From an uncultured Gammaproteobacteria bacterium (lineage in GTDB: Bacteria; Pseudomonadota; Gammaproteobacteria; PS1; Pseudothioglobaceae): DNA of 45,469 nt. Under the pieces are notes generated by a model, which saw only the letters and a list, made by a program, of their open reading frames with translations, was not told where the DNA came from and ran no database searches. Positions 4,655 to 10,778 of the stretch are shown here, in pieces; the first letter of the stretch is position 1, and every line of letters begins with the position of its first letter. The position numbers and the translations under genes were made by a program. Location: the NCBI GenBank assembly GCA_937896195.1, contig CALBNC010000114.1, positions 1 to 45,469 on the forward strand, given 5' to 3'.

Positions 4655-7072
4655 ATGAACTGGCGTCACCGTAGCGAGAGAAAATTCGAAAGTTTTTCAG
4701 ATATTATTTTTGAAAATAGCAAAAAAACCATTGCTTCAATTTTATTATTGGTCGCCCTATTTGGCTCTCAATTGCCTAATTTGACAATGGATACCTCGAC
4801 AGAGGGTTTTTTGCATAAGACTGATTCTATGCGTGTGACTTATGATGAGTTTCGAGATCAATTTGGACGTGATGAAAAATTATTGATCGCCATAAAAACA
4901 GAAAATGTATTCGACCTAAATTTTCTAAAAAAATTAGAAAAGCTACATAAAAGATTGGAAAATGAGCTGCCTTATATCGCTGACGTAAATTCATTGATTA
5001 ATGCTAGAAACACCTATGGTGACCAAGAGAGCTTAATTGTTGAAGATTTGTTTGAGGTCTTGCCAGATACCCAAGCACAAGTCGAGCCGCAAAAACAAAG
5101 AGCGCTTAATAATCCATTATTACAAAACTTGTTGTTTAGTGAAGATCAAACTTTCACAGCAATTGTGATCGATACACAAACATACTCTTCTTTTGACGCT
5201 AATGGTGAGCTGATTGTTGTTGGCGAAAAAGACGAGTTCTCGGACGAAATAGCGACAGAAACAACAAAAAAGATTTATTTGTCTGATGCAGAAAACACAG
5301 TTATTGTTAAAAAAACCCAAGAGATTATCAAGGATTTTGAAGCACAAGATTTTGAAATTTATTTAACAGGATCGGCGGTCATCGCAGGCACCTTAAAGCA
5401 AAGTATGATGGCAGATACAAAAAGCTTTGTAACGAAAATGGTCGTTATGATTATTATCGTTTTGGCGCTCTTGTTTAGGCGTATTTCAGGCGTTCTATTG
5501 CCACTGATGGCGGTTATTTTTACCATTACAATAACGCTATCTTTAATGGCTTTAACCAATACACCATTTACCATCGTGACCCAAATTATGCCATCTTTTT
5601 TGCTGGCAGTGGTTACTGGTGGCGCCATTCACTTGCTAGCTATTTTTTATAAAGACTTTGCAAAAACCCACGACACCAAGGCATCATTAAGATATGCCAT
5701 GGGCCACTCTGGTCTGGCCATCGTGATGACATCGCTAACGACAGCGGCGGGTTTATGGTCATTTTCATTTTCAGAATTATCACCGGTAGCGGATCTTGGC
5801 GTCTTTGCTAGTAGCGGCGTTTTGATTAGCTTATTGTTCAACCTCGTTTTGTTACCAGCCTTTATTGGTACTATAAAAATTAAAGTTAAATCAACCAAAG
5901 AAGATGCTCAAGAACATACAACGATGGATACCATGTTGTTAGGCATTAGTCGTATTTCTACTGGCTACCCAAAGGCCATTGTTGCCATTAGTGCAGTGAT
6001 GATCATTGTGGCAATATTTTTTGCTTCGCAATTAAGGTTTTCACACTACCCCCTGGAATGGTTTCCAAAAGACCACGCTTCAAGAATAGCCACAGAGGTG
6101 GTAGATGAAAATCTCAAAGGCTCAGTGACGTTAGAAATTATTATTGATACAGAAAAAGAAAACGGCCTATATGATCCGGTAATGCTGAATAAAATTCAGA
6201 CAACCACCGATTATCTTAATAGTATTCAAACGCCAACTTACTTTGTCGGAAAAACACTCAGCTTGGTGGATGTTCTAAAAGAAACCAATCGAGCATTAAA
6301 TGAAAATAGGGCTGATTTTTACACCATCCCGCAAGATAAAGATTTAATCGCTCAAGAGTTATTTTTATTTGAAAATAGCGGTAGTGATGATTTGGAAGAT
6401 TTTGTAGATGCCAGCTTTTCTAAGGCTAGAATTACGGTTAAGGTGCCGTATATTGATGCGCTCGAATACAACGGCTTTATATCGCAAGTCAAGGCACATC
6501 TTGAGCAAGAGTTTAATGGCCACGCAGTCGTAACCTTAACAGGCATAACTACTCTGCTTTCCGTTATCATGGATAAGTCAATTCATTCGAGTGCAGTGAG
6601 TTACCTAATTGCTTTTGGCCTAATTTCAGTTATGATGGTTTTATTAATTGGTAATGTAAAAATTGGCCTAATCAGTATGGTTCCAAACATGCTACCAATT
6701 CTATTCCTTTCAACCATTATGGTTGTTTTCGATATGCCACTTGATATGTTTACCATGCTAATTGGTGCTATCGCCCTAGGTTTGGCAGTGGACGATACCG
6801 TACACTTTATGCATAATTTTAGGCGCTATGAGCTTGAATTTAACGATGTTGATAAAGCCGTTAGGCTGACATTTATGGGCACGGGCAGGGCTATTGTAGT
6901 TACTTCGGTCGTACTATCCGTTGGATTTTTGGTGTTACTATTTGCCTCTATGAGCTCTATGTTTAACTTTGGCGTGCTGACAGCAAGCGCTATTTTTATT
7001 GCATTGATGGCAGATTTTTTCTTAGTACCGGCAATTATGAAATTACTTATTCACAATAAAGGAGATCTTTAA
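4655..7072 (+). CDS. RND superfamily (MMPL-type) lipid/hydrophobe exporter
   Basis: An 805-residue inner-membrane protein with the two-fold RND layout. TM1 is at about 33-50, followed by a large periplasmic domain (about 55-255), a five-helix block (about 258-400), TM7 near 440-455, a second periplasmic domain (about 460-640), and a final helix block (about 645-800). The helix-4 motif of the second half, ALGLAVDDTVHFMHNFRRY, carries the paired Asp typical of proton-driven MMPL/RND proteins. It heads a tight operon: its stop overlaps the next ATG by 1 nt, then a barrel protein. No membrane-fusion protein is present, so it resembles lipid-handling MMPL systems more than AcrB drug pumps. The substrate is unknown. 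Confidence 0.88.
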   Translation: MNWRHRSERKFESFSDIIFENSKKTIASILLLVALFGSQLPNLTMDTSTEGFLHKTDSMRVTYDEFRDQFGRDEKLLIAIKTENVFDLNFLKKLEKLHKRLENELPYIADVNSLINARNTYGDQESLIVEDLFEVLPDTQAQVEPQKQRALNNPLLQNLLFSEDQTFTAIVIDTQTYSSFDANGELIVVGEKDEFSDEIATETTKKIYLSDAENTVIVKKTQEIIKDFEAQDFEIYLTGSAVIAGTLKQSMMADTKSFVTKMVVMIIIVLALLFRRISGVLLPLMAVIFTITITLSLMALTNTPFTIVTQIMPSFLLAVVTGGAIHLLAIFYKDFAKTHDTKASLRYAMGHSGLAIVMTSLTTAAGLWSFSFSELSPVADLGVFASSGVLISLLFNLVLLPAFIGTIKIKVKSTKEDAQEHTTMDTMLLGISRISTGYPKAIVAISAVMIIVAIFFASQLRFSHYPLEWFPKDHASRIATEVVDENLKGSVTLEIIIDTEKENGLYDPVMLNKIQTTTDYLNSIQTPTYFVGKTLSLVDVLKETNRALNENRADFYTIPQDKDLIAQELFLFENSGSDDLEDFVDASFSKARITVKVPYIDALEYNGFISQVKAHLEQEFNGHAVVTLTGITTLLSVIMDKSIHSSAVSYLIAFGLISVMMVLLIGNVKIGLISMVPNMLPILFLSTIMVVFDMPLDMFTMLIGAIALGLAVDDTVHFMHNFRRYELEFNDVDKAVRLTFMGTGRAIVVTSVVLSVGFLVLLFASMSSMFNFGVLTASAIFIALMADFFLVPAIMKLLIHNKGDL

Positions 7073-7878
7073 TGAACAAAATAACACTATTAGCACTAGG
7101 TGTCATATTGGCTACAGCCAATGTTTCTGCCGCTGATGAGGCTAGAAGCATTATGGAAAGGGCTGATTCTAGAGACGATGGCTCTAGCCTTATCTCCACC
7201 ATGCAAATGATATTAATTGATAAAAATAACAAGCAGCGCACTCGACAAATGCGTACTTTTTCAAAAGATATTGATGATAATACTGAGCATAAAACCATCT
7301 TTTTCTTGTCACCAAGCGATGTAAAAAATACCGCATTTTTAACTTATGATTACAGCGGCGACGACAAGGACGATGATCAGTGGATGTATTTGCCAGCGTT
7401 GAAAAAAACCAAGCGCATTCCAGCTAGTGACAAAGATTCAGCTTTTATGGGTAGTGATTTTACTTACTCTGACATGACTGATAAGGAGCTAGATGATTAC
7501 ACATTTAAGCTGATTAAAGAAACTGTAATTAAGCGTAAAGATGGCGCCCATCCAGTTTGGGTGATTGAATCTTTGCCCGTGAGTCAGGCTATAATTGACG
7601 AAACTGGCTATACCAAAAGCGATTTGTACGTCAGAAAAGATAACTACGTACTAACGCGCGCGAAGTTTTATTTGAAAAAATCCAGCCGTTTGAAGTATAT
7701 GGATGTCAGTAAACTTGAAAAAATTGACGGCATTTGGGTGGCCATGCAAACCACTATGACGACCAAGCAAGGAACGCAAACACTACATAAGACCATCTTA
7801 AGTAATTCTGATGTCGAAATTAATCAGCCGATCGATAATGACATGTTTACAATTCGAACAATTGAGAAAGGCCTTTAA
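7072..7878 (+). CDS. LolA-like outer-membrane lipoprotein-sorting family protein
   Basis: A 268-residue exported protein with a signal peptide ending near NVSAAD. The mature part begins ARSIMERADSRDDG, then runs of beta strands including FFLSPSDVKNTAFL and DQWMYLPALKKTKRIP. This is the pattern of the outer membrane lipoprotein-sorting protein group with a LolA/LppX-like half-barrel. These proteins commonly pair with an MMPL/RND transporter and an outer-membrane barrel, as here. A periplasmic shuttle for a hydrophobic substrate is the expected role; the cargo is not determinable. The ATG overlaps the transporter stop by 1 nt (TAATG), indicating coupled translation. Confidence 0.85.
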   Translation: MNKITLLALGVILATANVSAADEARSIMERADSRDDGSSLISTMQMILIDKNNKQRTRQMRTFSKDIDDNTEHKTIFFLSPSDVKNTAFLTYDYSGDDKDDDQWMYLPALKKTKRIPASDKDSAFMGSDFTYSDMTDKELDDYTFKLIKETVIKRKDGAHPVWVIESLPVSQAIIDETGYTKSDLYVRKDNYVLTRAKFYLKKSSRLKYMDVSKLEKIDGIWVAMQTTMTTKQGTQTLHKTILSNSDVEINQPIDNDMFTIRTIEKGL

Positions 7879-7881
7879 GAG

Positions 7882-9174
7882 ATGAAATACTGGCTTAGCT
7901 CTGTCGCATTAGTTTTGTCATTATCTATTAGTGCAGAAGACGGCTTTGATGAAGGCTTTGATGATGAAGTGATTGAAGTGATTGAAGTTGTTGTCGATCA
8001 GGCGCCAGATTCAAAAGGTGACTTGTATGGCTCGATCGAAGTAGAAGCGCACTACAATGTTAGCAATGAAAAAGACTTGTCATCTTTAAAAACCTTAGTC
8101 GATATTTTGGGCGAGTACAAATTTGACAATGGCGCCAAATTATCAGGCAACCTTAAAGGCTACCGTGATTTTGTGTATGAGCTTGAAAATCGATCCGTTC
8201 CAGAGGGCTATGAAACTGAAATTGATTTAAATGAGCTTAATATTGAGCTCGAAATTTTTCAAGATTTAGACTTTAAGGCTGGTAGGCAGGTCGTAGTTTG
8301 GGGTAAGTCAGACTCTATCAGAATAACGGATATTCTTAATCCATTAGACAACCGCACACCTGGATTGGTCGATATTAAGAATTTACGCTTAGGTAGAACG
8401 ATGAGTAAACTAGATTATTATATGAATGATCTAAATCTATCTGTCATCGCCCTTCACGAAAATCGTTTTACAAAAACCCCAACCTATGGCTCTGATTTCA
8501 AAACCACTATAGATAATGCAACAAACATGCCCAGCGACAGTTTAGATAATACGTCTTTAGCGCTGAGCCTAACCGGTGCGTTTGAAGGCTACGATCTGGG
8601 ATTTTATTTTGCCGATACTTATGTTGACAAAGCCTATTTAAAAGACGACATACTTTATTATGATAATAAGTCAAAAATGGTGGGCGCCGCTTACAATCAA
8701 GTAATTGATAGTTTTTTGCTTAAGGCTGAGGCGGCACATTTTGAACAGATTAAGTACAATACTGATGTCAACAACACCATTGATAAAGCCAGAACTGATT
8801 TATTGTTAGGCATTGAATATAGTGGTATTCGTGATGGATCGATCAGCTATGAAATCGCCTTGAGAAAAATCCATGATTATGAAGCCCTAATCAATCATGT
8901 GCTAAATGGCTATAAGCCTGAGAAAGAATACCAACAGGCCTTACGTTTTAACCAATCTTATTTAAATCAAACGCTAGATTTTAATGCAGTTGTCAATGTA
9001 TTTGGTAACACGGGACAAGACGGAGGGACGGCTAGGTTTGAGCTTGATTATGCGGTTGATGATCAAATATCAGTGAGTGCTGGCGTTATTGATTATCTAT
9101 CAGGTGATAATCTTACTATTGATAGCTATAAGGATAACGACCGAATCTTTGCAAAACTAAGCTACGGTTTTTAG
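7882..9174 (+). CDS. Outer-membrane beta-barrel protein (DUF1302-like)
   Basis: A 430-residue protein with a signal peptide of about 18 residues (cleavage near SISAED), then an acidic stretch (DGFDEGFDDEVIEVIEVV). A series of amphipathic beta strands follows, ending in Phe (AKLSYGF), the usual C-terminal signature of outer-membrane barrels. The segment LDFKAGRQVVVWGKSDSIRI with later NPLDNRTPG resembles DUF1302 proteins, known neighbours of RND transporters and LolA-like proteins. It lies 3 nt after the LolA-like gene, completing a three-part inner membrane, periplasm and outer membrane set. Assignment rests on architecture and context. Confidence 0.78.
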   Translation: MKYWLSSVALVLSLSISAEDGFDEGFDDEVIEVIEVVVDQAPDSKGDLYGSIEVEAHYNVSNEKDLSSLKTLVDILGEYKFDNGAKLSGNLKGYRDFVYELENRSVPEGYETEIDLNELNIELEIFQDLDFKAGRQVVVWGKSDSIRITDILNPLDNRTPGLVDIKNLRLGRTMSKLDYYMNDLNLSVIALHENRFTKTPTYGSDFKTTIDNATNMPSDSLDNTSLALSLTGAFEGYDLGFYFADTYVDKAYLKDDILYYDNKSKMVGAAYNQVIDSFLLKAEAAHFEQIKYNTDVNNTIDKARTDLLLGIEYSGIRDGSISYEIALRKIHDYEALINHVLNGYKPEKEYQQALRFNQSYLNQTLDFNAVVNVFGNTGQDGGTARFELDYAVDDQISVSAGVIDYLSGDNLTIDSYKDNDRIFAKLSYGF

Positions 9175-9239: not shown

Positions 9240-9752
9240 ATGAAAAAAATTAATTATTTTCTGATTGGCTTAGCGGCTACATCTATGAGTGCTACTGCAT
9301 TTTTTAATGCCGACAGCTTCACACCTTTTGGTAACGGCACGGGCCACACGAGCCAAGCTCCTTGGAGCAATGGCTCTAATTGGAATCCAATGTCTTCGGG
9401 TAAGCAATATTCACCACAAAATGACGCACGTAACATGAGTCGCTACGGTGTACGCTCAGGCACACTTAAAAATAATGCATTCCAACAAAATAACGCAATG
9501 ATGGCTACGCCTAATCAAATCCAGCCGAGTAATTGGTTACAAGAGACAGACTTTAGTAAAACGCTAGATCAAATTAAAGGCTCAGGCAGCAAAACATTTT
9601 TCGTTAACGAAATGCCAGTAAATTTTAATGAAGGCTATAAGCAGATGCAATCGCAGTCTCAAAATGCTCAACAAGCGGTTAGAGAGCAAATACAGGGTCA
9701 GCGCTTATCGCCCGCTGCTTCATCTACGCCTAGAGTTAACACCGATCAGTAA
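9240..9752 (+). CDS. Secreted Asn/Gln/Ser-rich protein, sulfur-globule-like in style
   Basis: A 170-residue protein with a signal peptide (MKKINYFLIGLAAT...SATA, cleavage before FFNADS). The mature region is rich in Asn, Gln, Ser, Gly and Met, with phrases such as FTPFGNG and GSNWNPMSSG near the N-terminus and a Gln-rich helical tail. I chose the ATG at 9240 because it starts a clean signal peptide. The in-frame start at 9180 lies inside the promoter palindrome. No convincing Shine-Dalgarno sequence is visible. The export signal followed by AFF and the Pro-Phe/Asn-Gly motifs resemble the gene at 10165. No enzyme motif is present. A structural envelope or sulfur-globule role is inference. Confidence 0.7.
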   Translation: MKKINYFLIGLAATSMSATAFFNADSFTPFGNGTGHTSQAPWSNGSNWNPMSSGKQYSPQNDARNMSRYGVRSGTLKNNAFQQNNAMMATPNQIQPSNWLQETDFSKTLDQIKGSGSKTFFVNEMPVNFNEGYKQMQSQSQNAQQAVREQIQGQRLSPAASSTPRVNTDQ

Positions 9753-9778
9753 TTAACAAGGCTTGACTTAATCTAGGG

Positions 9779-9801
9779 CCGCTATTTATAGCGGTTTTTT
9801 T
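9779..9801 (+). terminator. Rho-independent terminator
   Basis: The stem CCGCTA / TAGCGG with loop TTTA is followed by seven T residues, 26 bp after the stop of the secreted-protein gene. Confidence 0.9.
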
Positions 9802-10046: not shown

Positions 10047-10074
10047 TTGACTTCTAATATAATTGTTATATAAT
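10047..10074 (+). promoter_or_regulatory. Strong sigma-70 promoter for the repeat protein
   Basis: TTGACT (10047-10052) and TATAAT (10069-10074) are separated by 16 bp, with an A/T-rich region upstream. The expected start is near 10081, giving an 84-nt leader with a hairpin. Confidence 0.75.
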
Positions 10075-10108
10075 ACTCACCATGCAGAACAAGAGTTCAG
10101 CACTTTAA

Positions 10109-10132
10109 AACAGAATCAATAATGACTCTGTT
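10109..10132 (+). promoter_or_regulatory. 5' leader hairpin
   Basis: The arms AACAGAATCA and TGACTCTGTT pair over ten positions with one mismatch and an ATAA loop. It sits in the leader of the repeat-protein mRNA, upstream of the AGGAG site at about 10154. A stabilising role is inference. Confidence 0.45.
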
Positions 10133-10164
10133 AAAAAATTTAAAAAATAATCTAGGAGATTAAC

Positions 10165-10680
10165 ATGAAAAAAATTATCGCAATTACTACTTTAGTAGCA
10201 GCTACTTCAGCTTCAGCTTTTTTTGGTAACAACAACAACAACGGTTGGACTAACGGTAACGGCATGTCTAACTGGGGTCCTTTTGACGGTGGTTCTAACT
10301 TCGGTCCTATGAACTCAGGTTCTAACATGGGTCCTTTTACTGGTGGACAGAACATGGGTCCTTTCAACGGTGGTTCTAACATGGGTCCTTTCAATGGCGC
10401 TCAAAACATGGGTCCTTTTGCAAACAACAACGACATGAACAACGATTCTGATTGGGGTTTCCATTACAACAACAAGAACGCTACTAAGAACGTTTCTAAC
10501 GCGACTACAGACGGTAAATTCGCTGGTGTTGCTGACGCTAACGCTAAAGGTGTTGCTGATGCATACGCTAAAGGTCAAGCTGACGCTTTTGCTAAGGCTC
10601 AAGCAGATGCATACGCTAAAGGTTACGCAGACGCTAAGACTAGCTCTGCTGTAGACTCACGTGAAACAACTGCTAAGTAA
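10165..10680 (+). CDS. Secreted protein of two tandem repeat types, possible sulfur globule protein
   Basis: A 171-residue protein with a signal peptide cleaved near SASA-FFG. After an Asn run come six exact-period 9-residue repeats with core (W/F/M)-G-P-(F/M) at residues 37, 46, 55, 64, 73 and 82 (for example NMGPFNGGS). An Asn/Asp linker follows, then five 8-residue repeats of the type GVADAYAK at 121-158. There is no cysteine and no enzyme motif. Signal peptide plus Gly/Pro/Asn/aromatic repeats recall the sulfur globule envelope proteins of purple sulfur bacteria; homology is not shown. Strong promoter, leader hairpin, AGGAG site, uniform codons (GGT, AAC, GCT, TCT) and two terminators all suggest very high expression. 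Confidence 0.8.
   Translation: MKKIIAITTLVAATSASAFFGNNNNNGWTNGNGMSNWGPFDGGSNFGPMNSGSNMGPFTGGQNMGPFNGGSNMGPFNGAQNMGPFANNNDMNNDSDWGFHYNNKNATKNVSNATTDGKFAGVADANAKGVADAYAKGQADAFAKAQADAYAKGYADAKTSSAVDSRETTAK
10267..10428 (+). repeat. Six tandem 27-bp coding repeats
   Basis: Six in-frame units encode the 9-residue pattern x-N-(W/F/M)-G-P-(F/M) plus three linker residues. The core GGTCCT is nearly invariant. Codons vary slightly between units, so selection at the protein level is likely. Confidence 0.85.
10525..10638 (+). repeat. Five tandem 24-bp coding repeats
   Basis: In-frame units encode the octapeptide (G/A)(V/Q/Y)ADA(N/Y/F)AK; the last unit is truncated. This second repeat family is distinct from the 27-bp repeats in the same gene. 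Confidence 0.85.
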
Positions 10681-10697: not shown

Positions 10698-10722
10698 CGA
10701 TTGAGTTAACTCAATCGTTTTT
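10698..10722 (+). terminator. Palindromic terminator hairpin
   Basis: A 20-bp perfect palindrome with halves CGATTGAGTT and AACTCAATCG is followed by five T residues, 17 bp after the repeat-protein stop. Confidence 0.75.
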
Positions 10723-10726
10723 AGCT

Positions 10727-10754
10727 AAAACCACCCTTCGGGGTGGTTTTTTTT
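10727..10754 (+). terminator. Strong Rho-independent terminator
   Basis: The stem AAAACCACCC / GGGTGGTTTT has a stable TTCG tetraloop and a long T run. It is the second terminator in tandem, insulating the next promoter from the strongly expressed repeat-protein gene. Confidence 0.92.
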
Positions 10755-10778
10755 GGCCAAAATAAAGTTTTAACTTGC

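Follow-up and report, generated by a model that had tools for sequence, protein, structure and literature searches.

What is the function of the secreted, doubly repetitive protein encoded at positions 10165 to 10680 of this contig? In oxygen minimum zones, at vents and in animal symbioses, SUP05 bacteria contribute strongly to dark carbon fixation. Bacterial globule coats, like the storage and release of sulfur, are known mainly from purple sulfur bacteria, and our literature search found no SUP05 globule coat protein assigned by sequence. A sequence-only reading of the window (the whole stretch of 45,469 nucleotides that was analysed) had suggested a periplasmic structural protein, possibly the coat of sulfur globules. 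The gene and its product have the following features.

10165 to 10680, + strand: gene of the two-block repeat protein (171 aa, ATG start; mature protein of 15.8 kDa, pI 5.1, no Cys)
10165 to 10218, + strand: signal peptide, aa 1-18, MKKIIAITTLVAATSASA followed by FF after the cleavage site, read from the sequence and kept across the family
10270 to 10419, + strand: six nonapeptides, family consensus G-P-F-N-G-G-S-N-W/M
10420 to 10515, + strand: conserved middle motif NNDSDWGFHYNNKNATKN, family consensus NDTDFGxNFNTKN (alignment A2)
10525 to 10638, + strand: octapeptides, four full and one truncated, family consensus A-D-A-Y-A-K-G-Q

The signal peptide was called by eye from its Lys-rich start, hydrophobic core and ASA site, and an N-terminal Sec signal of this type is conserved in 47/47 aligned family members, also by eye. 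The open reading frame with its signal peptide is thus as the sequence-only reading had it, and so are the six 9-residue repeats: GP(F/M) occurs at aa 38, 47, 56, 65, 74 and 83, a spacing of exactly nine, with a Pro every 9 residues six times over, and the period-9 identity of this block is 29 versus 6.5 +/- 2.3 in shuffles (z 9.9, 0/3000). The second period is also real (period-8 identity of 23 versus 6.6 +/- 2.1 in shuffles; z 8.0, 0/3000), but the five octads of that reading are in fact four full ones (aa 123-154) and a truncated fifth (aa 155-158). Across 47 members, the nonad consensus is GPFNGGSN(W/M), with Gly and Pro present in 288/288 nonads. In the 224 octads of the same proteins, the odd positions are A/G/S in >98% of cases, and the even positions hold Asp, Tyr/Phe/Asn, Lys and Gln/Tyr/Val. 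The protein is hydrophilic on average (GRAVY -0.87; family range -1.25 to -0.61). No family in Pfam, NCBIfam or the PDB matches it, and the earlier remark that no named family combines both repeats is right for Pfam and NCBIfam. The search for clear homology to an unrelated family in these three databases returned chance hits only, namely FliH (E 0.004) and HasA (E 0.27), which were dismissed as compositional.

Composition bears on one alternative, that the protein binds or buffers, in the periplasm, some other form of sulfur or a metal (polysulfide, iron) and merely accompanies sulfur oxidation. The Asp-rich octads would suit such a role, as would the association with dsr genes and the Fe-S genes iscU, iscA and ferredoxin found in the phage clusters described below. 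However, the mature parts of all 47 members are devoid of Cys and contain ~0.4% His, unlike known metal or persulfide carriers, and the repeats and presumed abundance look structural. We regard this role as very improbable.

The octad block displays a strict alternation of small and large residues. Its hydrophobic moment is 1.67 at 180 degrees versus 0.22 at 100 degrees, a peak typical of an extended-strand pattern, which by sequence pattern alone would favour a strand-type over a helical conformation. Of the two possibilities raised beforehand, a regular helix or an amyloid-like layer, the sequence pattern thus points to the layer. The helix is less favoured, although the Asp and Lys residues four apart and the Ala content would suit it too, and although AlphaFold2, run with two alignments, drew a low-confidence helix over residues 120-164 (pLDDT ~50; ~43 overall, too low for a usable model).

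The surroundings of the gene suggest abundant synthesis.

10047 to 10074, + strand: sigma-70-type promoter TTGACT-N16-TATAAT, 11/12 consensus matches
10082 to 10164, + strand: 5' leader RNA, with hairpin 1 at 10083-10102, hairpin 2 at 10109-10132 and a weak hairpin over the ribosome site
10154 to 10158, + strand: ribosome-binding site AGGAG, 6 nt before the ATG, read from the sequence
10698 to 10722, + strand: terminator hairpin 1, CGATTGAG/CTCAATCG and T5, fold z -4.0
10727 to 10755, + strand: terminator hairpin 2, AACCACCC-TTCG-GGGTGGTT and a T-run, fold z -4.2

The promoter element, TTGACTTCTAATATA...GTATAAT, is also found upstream of orthologues in other genera. Both terminators were read from the sequence and then folded; the consensus scan listed neither. 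Codon usage is strongly biased: AAC serves for 26/27 Asn codons versus 34% in the rest of the window, GGT for 21/24 Gly codons, and the C-ending fraction of NNY codons (0.78) is the highest among window ORFs of at least 150 aa. The strong promoter, leader hairpin, ribosome site, uniform codons and two terminators that had been noticed at the outset are therefore all there. Because promoter, leader, ribosome site, codon bias and terminators concur, we infer that the gene is highly expressed; the sequence features support this earlier claim well, and the expression level itself is deduced from them.

The leader RNA folds into two hairpins (z -3.75), the first of which sits at the expected transcript start. 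Among 22 related leaders the mean fold z is -2.87, with 18 below -1.5, and the two hairpins are kept while the sequences change. Scored for the window's fold, a MAFFT alignment that was not fitted to structure showed 31 double-change cells versus 11.1 in shuffles (0/500 reach it), a number that drops to 5-12 once the pairing partner is slid. RNAalifold on the MAFFT leader alignment returned no structure, probably because gaps split the stems. A covariance model (R1) retrieved 24 loci at 59 bits or more, upstream of genes of this subtype and including other genera, and in five whole genomes every R1 match with E < 0.04 lies directly upstream of a family member. Rfam yielded no match to the leader above threshold, and its sub-threshold hits all fell on the terminator region. 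Since the 5' edge of hairpin 1 roughly coincides with the expected transcript start, this hairpin is probably an ompA-like stabiliser of the mRNA.

Upstream of the repeat gene lie genes for a two-component system, an HAE3 transporter, a LolA-like protein and a DUF1302 protein, as well as a relative of the repeat gene itself.

4655 to 9174, + strand: HAE3/MMPL transporter, LolA-like and DUF1302 genes (Pfam/NCBIfam), probably separate in function from the repeat gene
9240 to 9752 (C114:9243), + strand: diverged secreted relative (170 aa) closing the run of transporter genes, with a terminator at 9775-9798

The product of the latter gene matches the repeat protein over the signal peptide and first repeats (BLASTP E 3e-6), and its orthologues sit at the same place in relatives. 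The HAE3/LolA-like/DUF1302 set is itself conserved across several families of gammaproteobacteria, many of which bear dsr genes (L079-L090). The repeat protein might be a cargo or partner of this system, e.g. in the export of outer-membrane lipids or pigments: the genes are adjacent and co-directional, the diverged relative lies right behind the DUF1302 gene, and Allochromatium vinosum sgpD also adjoins an HAE exporter and a two-component regulator (PMC10386293). Against this, the repeat gene has its own promoter, with a terminator in between, and the main cluster of two-block paralogues is found behind icd, elsewhere in the genome. We traced the SgpD-like linkage across orthologous transporter sets from about a dozen other gammaproteobacteria and found a repeat gene beside none of them. 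Clam and mussel symbionts keep repeat genes, and the three that were checked are devoid of a close transporter orthologue. Because of the orthologous sets without a repeat gene and the location of the main cluster behind icd, we treated the transporter context as uninformative, and partnership with the transporter is the least probable of the roles that we weighed. At the icd locus, upstream of the two-block paralogue cluster, some relatives carry a monomeric-type isocitrate dehydrogenase (L005:4725-6950, L006:4641-6866) at the very position of the dimeric-type enzyme (L093:15969-17216).

A scan of representative genomes identified 41 loci of the two-block family, and the records named to genus or host are of SUP05 type (Thioglobus, Ruthia, Vesicomyosocius, Bathymodiolus symbionts, Thiodubiliella). 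The dsr-bearing SUP05/Thioglobaceae harbour 1-6 copies; the source genome has further members on another contig (C127; two plus one cut) and a weak relative on C81. Reduced clam symbionts of the Ruthia/Vesicomyosocius type, with genomes of ~1.0-1.2 Mb, have retained 2-4 copies. The dsrAB genes mark bacteria that build sulfur reserves (PMC2702494), and the family tracks dsrA: in 83 Thioglobaceae genomes, it is present in 46/49 with dsrA versus 4/34 without (Fisher p ~6e-15, descriptive only as the genomes are related, and overstated because the correlation rests largely on one deep split, genus g276 versus the rest). The 29 genomes of g276 contain neither dsrA nor the two-block family, except for one 4.4-kb contig in G383, which is probably mis-binned since a second MAG encodes the identical protein.

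The association is not strict in the other direction. Three dsrA-bearing Thioglobaceae (G415, G417, G426) lack the family. Across our class sample, dsrA is present in 117/369 genomes, with strong two-block matches only in Thioglobaceae, and the family is absent, bar weak hits, from 113 other dsrA genomes outside Thioglobaceae. It is therefore not required for sulfur storage generally, and represents a solution of the Thioglobaceae clade rather than a universal one. Distant homologues of the same layout occur in another dsr-bearing family (G102, G219), where the middle motif is retained in one distant homologue.

Within several genomes, paired copies are identical or nearly so (G407:C1:390702 and 1531401; G109:C1:9101 and 861251; L008 and L010), and as their flanks differ, the symbiont pairs suggest gene conversion. 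A frameshift divides the family gene of a Bathymodiolus heckerae symbiont (L033:4739-5244), leaving the repeat block in one frame and the remainder in another; this is either a pseudogene or an assembly error.

A second secreted family accompanies the first one. Beside metH, the source genome carries four tandem genes for secreted N/W/G-rich proteins (C81, i.e. L094:5694-7753, minus strand), one type of which bears a DNGMFGYNPYDYWDPRWYMEEM-like motif (PRWYxEEM). This PRWY type is present in 45/49 dsrA genomes of Thioglobaceae and in none of g276, and at two loci (L007, L169) the PRWY-motif gene directly follows a two-block gene. From this distribution and linkage, the PRWY-type and two-block sets are candidate components of one coat.

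The cultured Candidatus Thioglobus autotrophicus EF1, whose published genome is of 1,512,449 bp (PMC4616170) and which we take to be our genome G427, has five two-block members. According to the main text of Shah et al. 2019 (PMC6509183), EF1 forms periplasmic globules as seen by cryo-ET, and four genes designated 'putative sgp', whose identities are not in that text, include three detected by proteomics. Because EF1 has five two-block members and a PRWY-type cluster, those four may be among these proteins; either set could correspond to them.

Shortened homologues are encoded by phages. Our scan of viral contigs identified ten that harbour them, each version comprising a signal peptide, 2-5 GPF-type units, the middle motif and 1-3 octads. 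In L185 and L186 the signal peptide is identical to that of host members. Phage hallmarks, i.e. PhoH, a gp32-type (T4-type) SSB, topoisomerase II, helicase, primase and major head proteins, are found on L179, L182, L185, L189 and L190, and exonuclease genes also neighbour the homologues. The gene order on one contig (L188:5682-10275) is two-block gene, outer-membrane-like gene, DsrA (83% identical to the host's), TusA, IscU, ferredoxin and IscA; on another (L185:10001-11123), the two-block gene precedes TusA and the start of DsrC. PRWY-type, DsrC-like and two-block genes lie within 3.2 kb on L182-L184 (L182:7263-10411), and L189:282-10240 also has both the two-block and PRWY types. The PRWY type is found on 28 viral contigs, two of which have a DsrC 75% identical to the host's following it. 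A secreted phage protein of ~290 aa, encoded beside the two-block gene on four contigs (L182:8949-9821, L186:10441-11313, L188:6123-6995, L190:8449-9273), reads like an outer-membrane porin, and the three scanned gave no Pfam match. Searches of GenBank phages yielded no match to the two-block family, the R1 model gave one weak hit on phage copies, whose leader folds are not significant, and the tree gave no answer as to the number of acquisitions. Phage dsrA, dsrC, tusA and iscA are already known (PMC8190135, PMC4164917); no mention of globule-type structural proteins in phages was found in the texts of these two papers or in a further literature search, and the two-block copies are apparently unreported auxiliary genes of a structural type. 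Of the evidence that ties the family's role to stored sulfur, this phage linkage is the strongest.

The same linkage bears on the possibility that the protein is a structural component of the cell surface or outer membrane (S-layer accessory, adhesin, matrix) without a role in globules. The signal peptide, the high predicted expression and the Gly/Asn-rich repeats, of a kind seen in many surface proteins, would suit this, and EF1 and other SUP05 bacteria have an S-layer and lack FtsZ (PMC6509183). Yet the S-layer protein known from SUP05 is a different one, and a surface role predicts neither a distribution that tracks dsrA nor phage copies beside dsrA, dsrC and tusA. We consider a surface role unlikely.

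We thus regard the two-block protein as a likely constituent, in SUP05 bacteria, of the periplasmic sulfur-globule envelope. The coat proposed in the sequence-only reading gains from the co-distribution with dsrA, the five copies in EF1 and the phage adjacency to dsrA, dsrC and tusA, from which we infer its location at the globule. In sequence the family is new, although the functional class to which it probably belongs is known, and its phage branch was unexpected. In our model, the strong promoter and a 5'-terminal hairpin that probably protects the mRNA would yield large amounts of protein, which would be exported by Sec and then stay in the periplasm. The nonads, rich in Gly, Asn, Pro and aromatic residues, would form a flexible, turn-rich block wetting the hydrophobic sulfur surface via the spaced W/M/F side chains. 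The octads, with an Ala/Gly face and an Asp/Tyr/Lys/Gln face, might stack against those of adjacent molecules in a sheet-like or paired layer, and 2-6 paralogues together with the PRWYxEEM-type tandem family would form the coat. The short phage versions, with the rDsr genes, would probably alter the globules so that stored sulfur is burnt during infection. More specifically, SUP05-type phages might use short two-block and PRWY proteins along with DsrA, DsrC and TusA to remodel host globules and speed the use of stored sulfur, a tentative proposal that we put at somewhat under even chances.

The two-block family offers a testable coat component, the short phage versions serving as a naturally minimal construct. 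Should globules be the target of the phage copies, a storage organelle would be under viral tuning, giving a wider view of viral control of the marine sulfur cycle, and if the remodelling proposal is true, this would be a viral gene for granule architecture rather than for an enzyme.

As described in PMC10386293, A. vinosum SgpA, SgpB and SgpC are, like the two-block proteins, small, exported, repetitive paralogues with spaced prolines, encoded in single transcription units; the prolines, the lone transcription unit and the paralogy argue for the globule assignment. The hosts of both are sulfur-storing, rDsr-bearing gammaproteobacteria. What argues against it is hydropathy: SgpA-C are described as extremely hydrophobic proteins of 11-13 kDa, whereas the two-block protein is hydrophilic and larger. 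The two exact-period blocks also distinguish it from SgpA-C as described there. No photosynthetic or purple sulfur genome was found among the 68 screened for comparison. SgpD (Alvin_2515), the most abundant globule protein of A. vinosum (PMC10386293), resembles the two-block protein in its Sec signal, repeats, own promoter and terminator. Genes for an HAE exporter and for a two-component system lie close to sgpD; such neighbours are present in the window yet not conserved in the genomes examined. The repeats of SgpD are described as helices and P-X2-P, and it is reported as nearly confined to Chromatiaceae by BLASTP (PMC10386293). In the order of G360, which is dsr-bearing, a multiplied, abundant secreted family rich in G/Y/W (L117:1453-2283; WWGNDGWGDG...GRGYGYGPYGYG) is a candidate classic Sgp.

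Functional amyloids such as CsgA and FapC have a dedicated secretion and nucleation operon and a cross-beta fibre; no operon of this sort was noticed around the repeat gene. The octads share with self-assembling alternating peptides and silks such as EAK16 and fibroin a strict alternation of small and large residues in which one face carries acidic and basic side chains, a likeness of pattern only. The putative Sgp proteins of EF1 come from the same clade as the two-block family, and their main-text description in PMC6509183 mentions neither a repeat architecture nor a leader RNA nor copies in phages. Lastly, the sulfur auxiliary metabolic genes of SUP05 phages, dsrA, dsrC and soxYZ (PMC8190135, PMC4164917), occur on the same kind of contig, with TusA, NifU/IscU, IscA and PhoH near dsrA/dsrC as here. 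Those published genes encode sulfur-oxidation enzymes and carriers, whereas the two-block copies are of a structural type.
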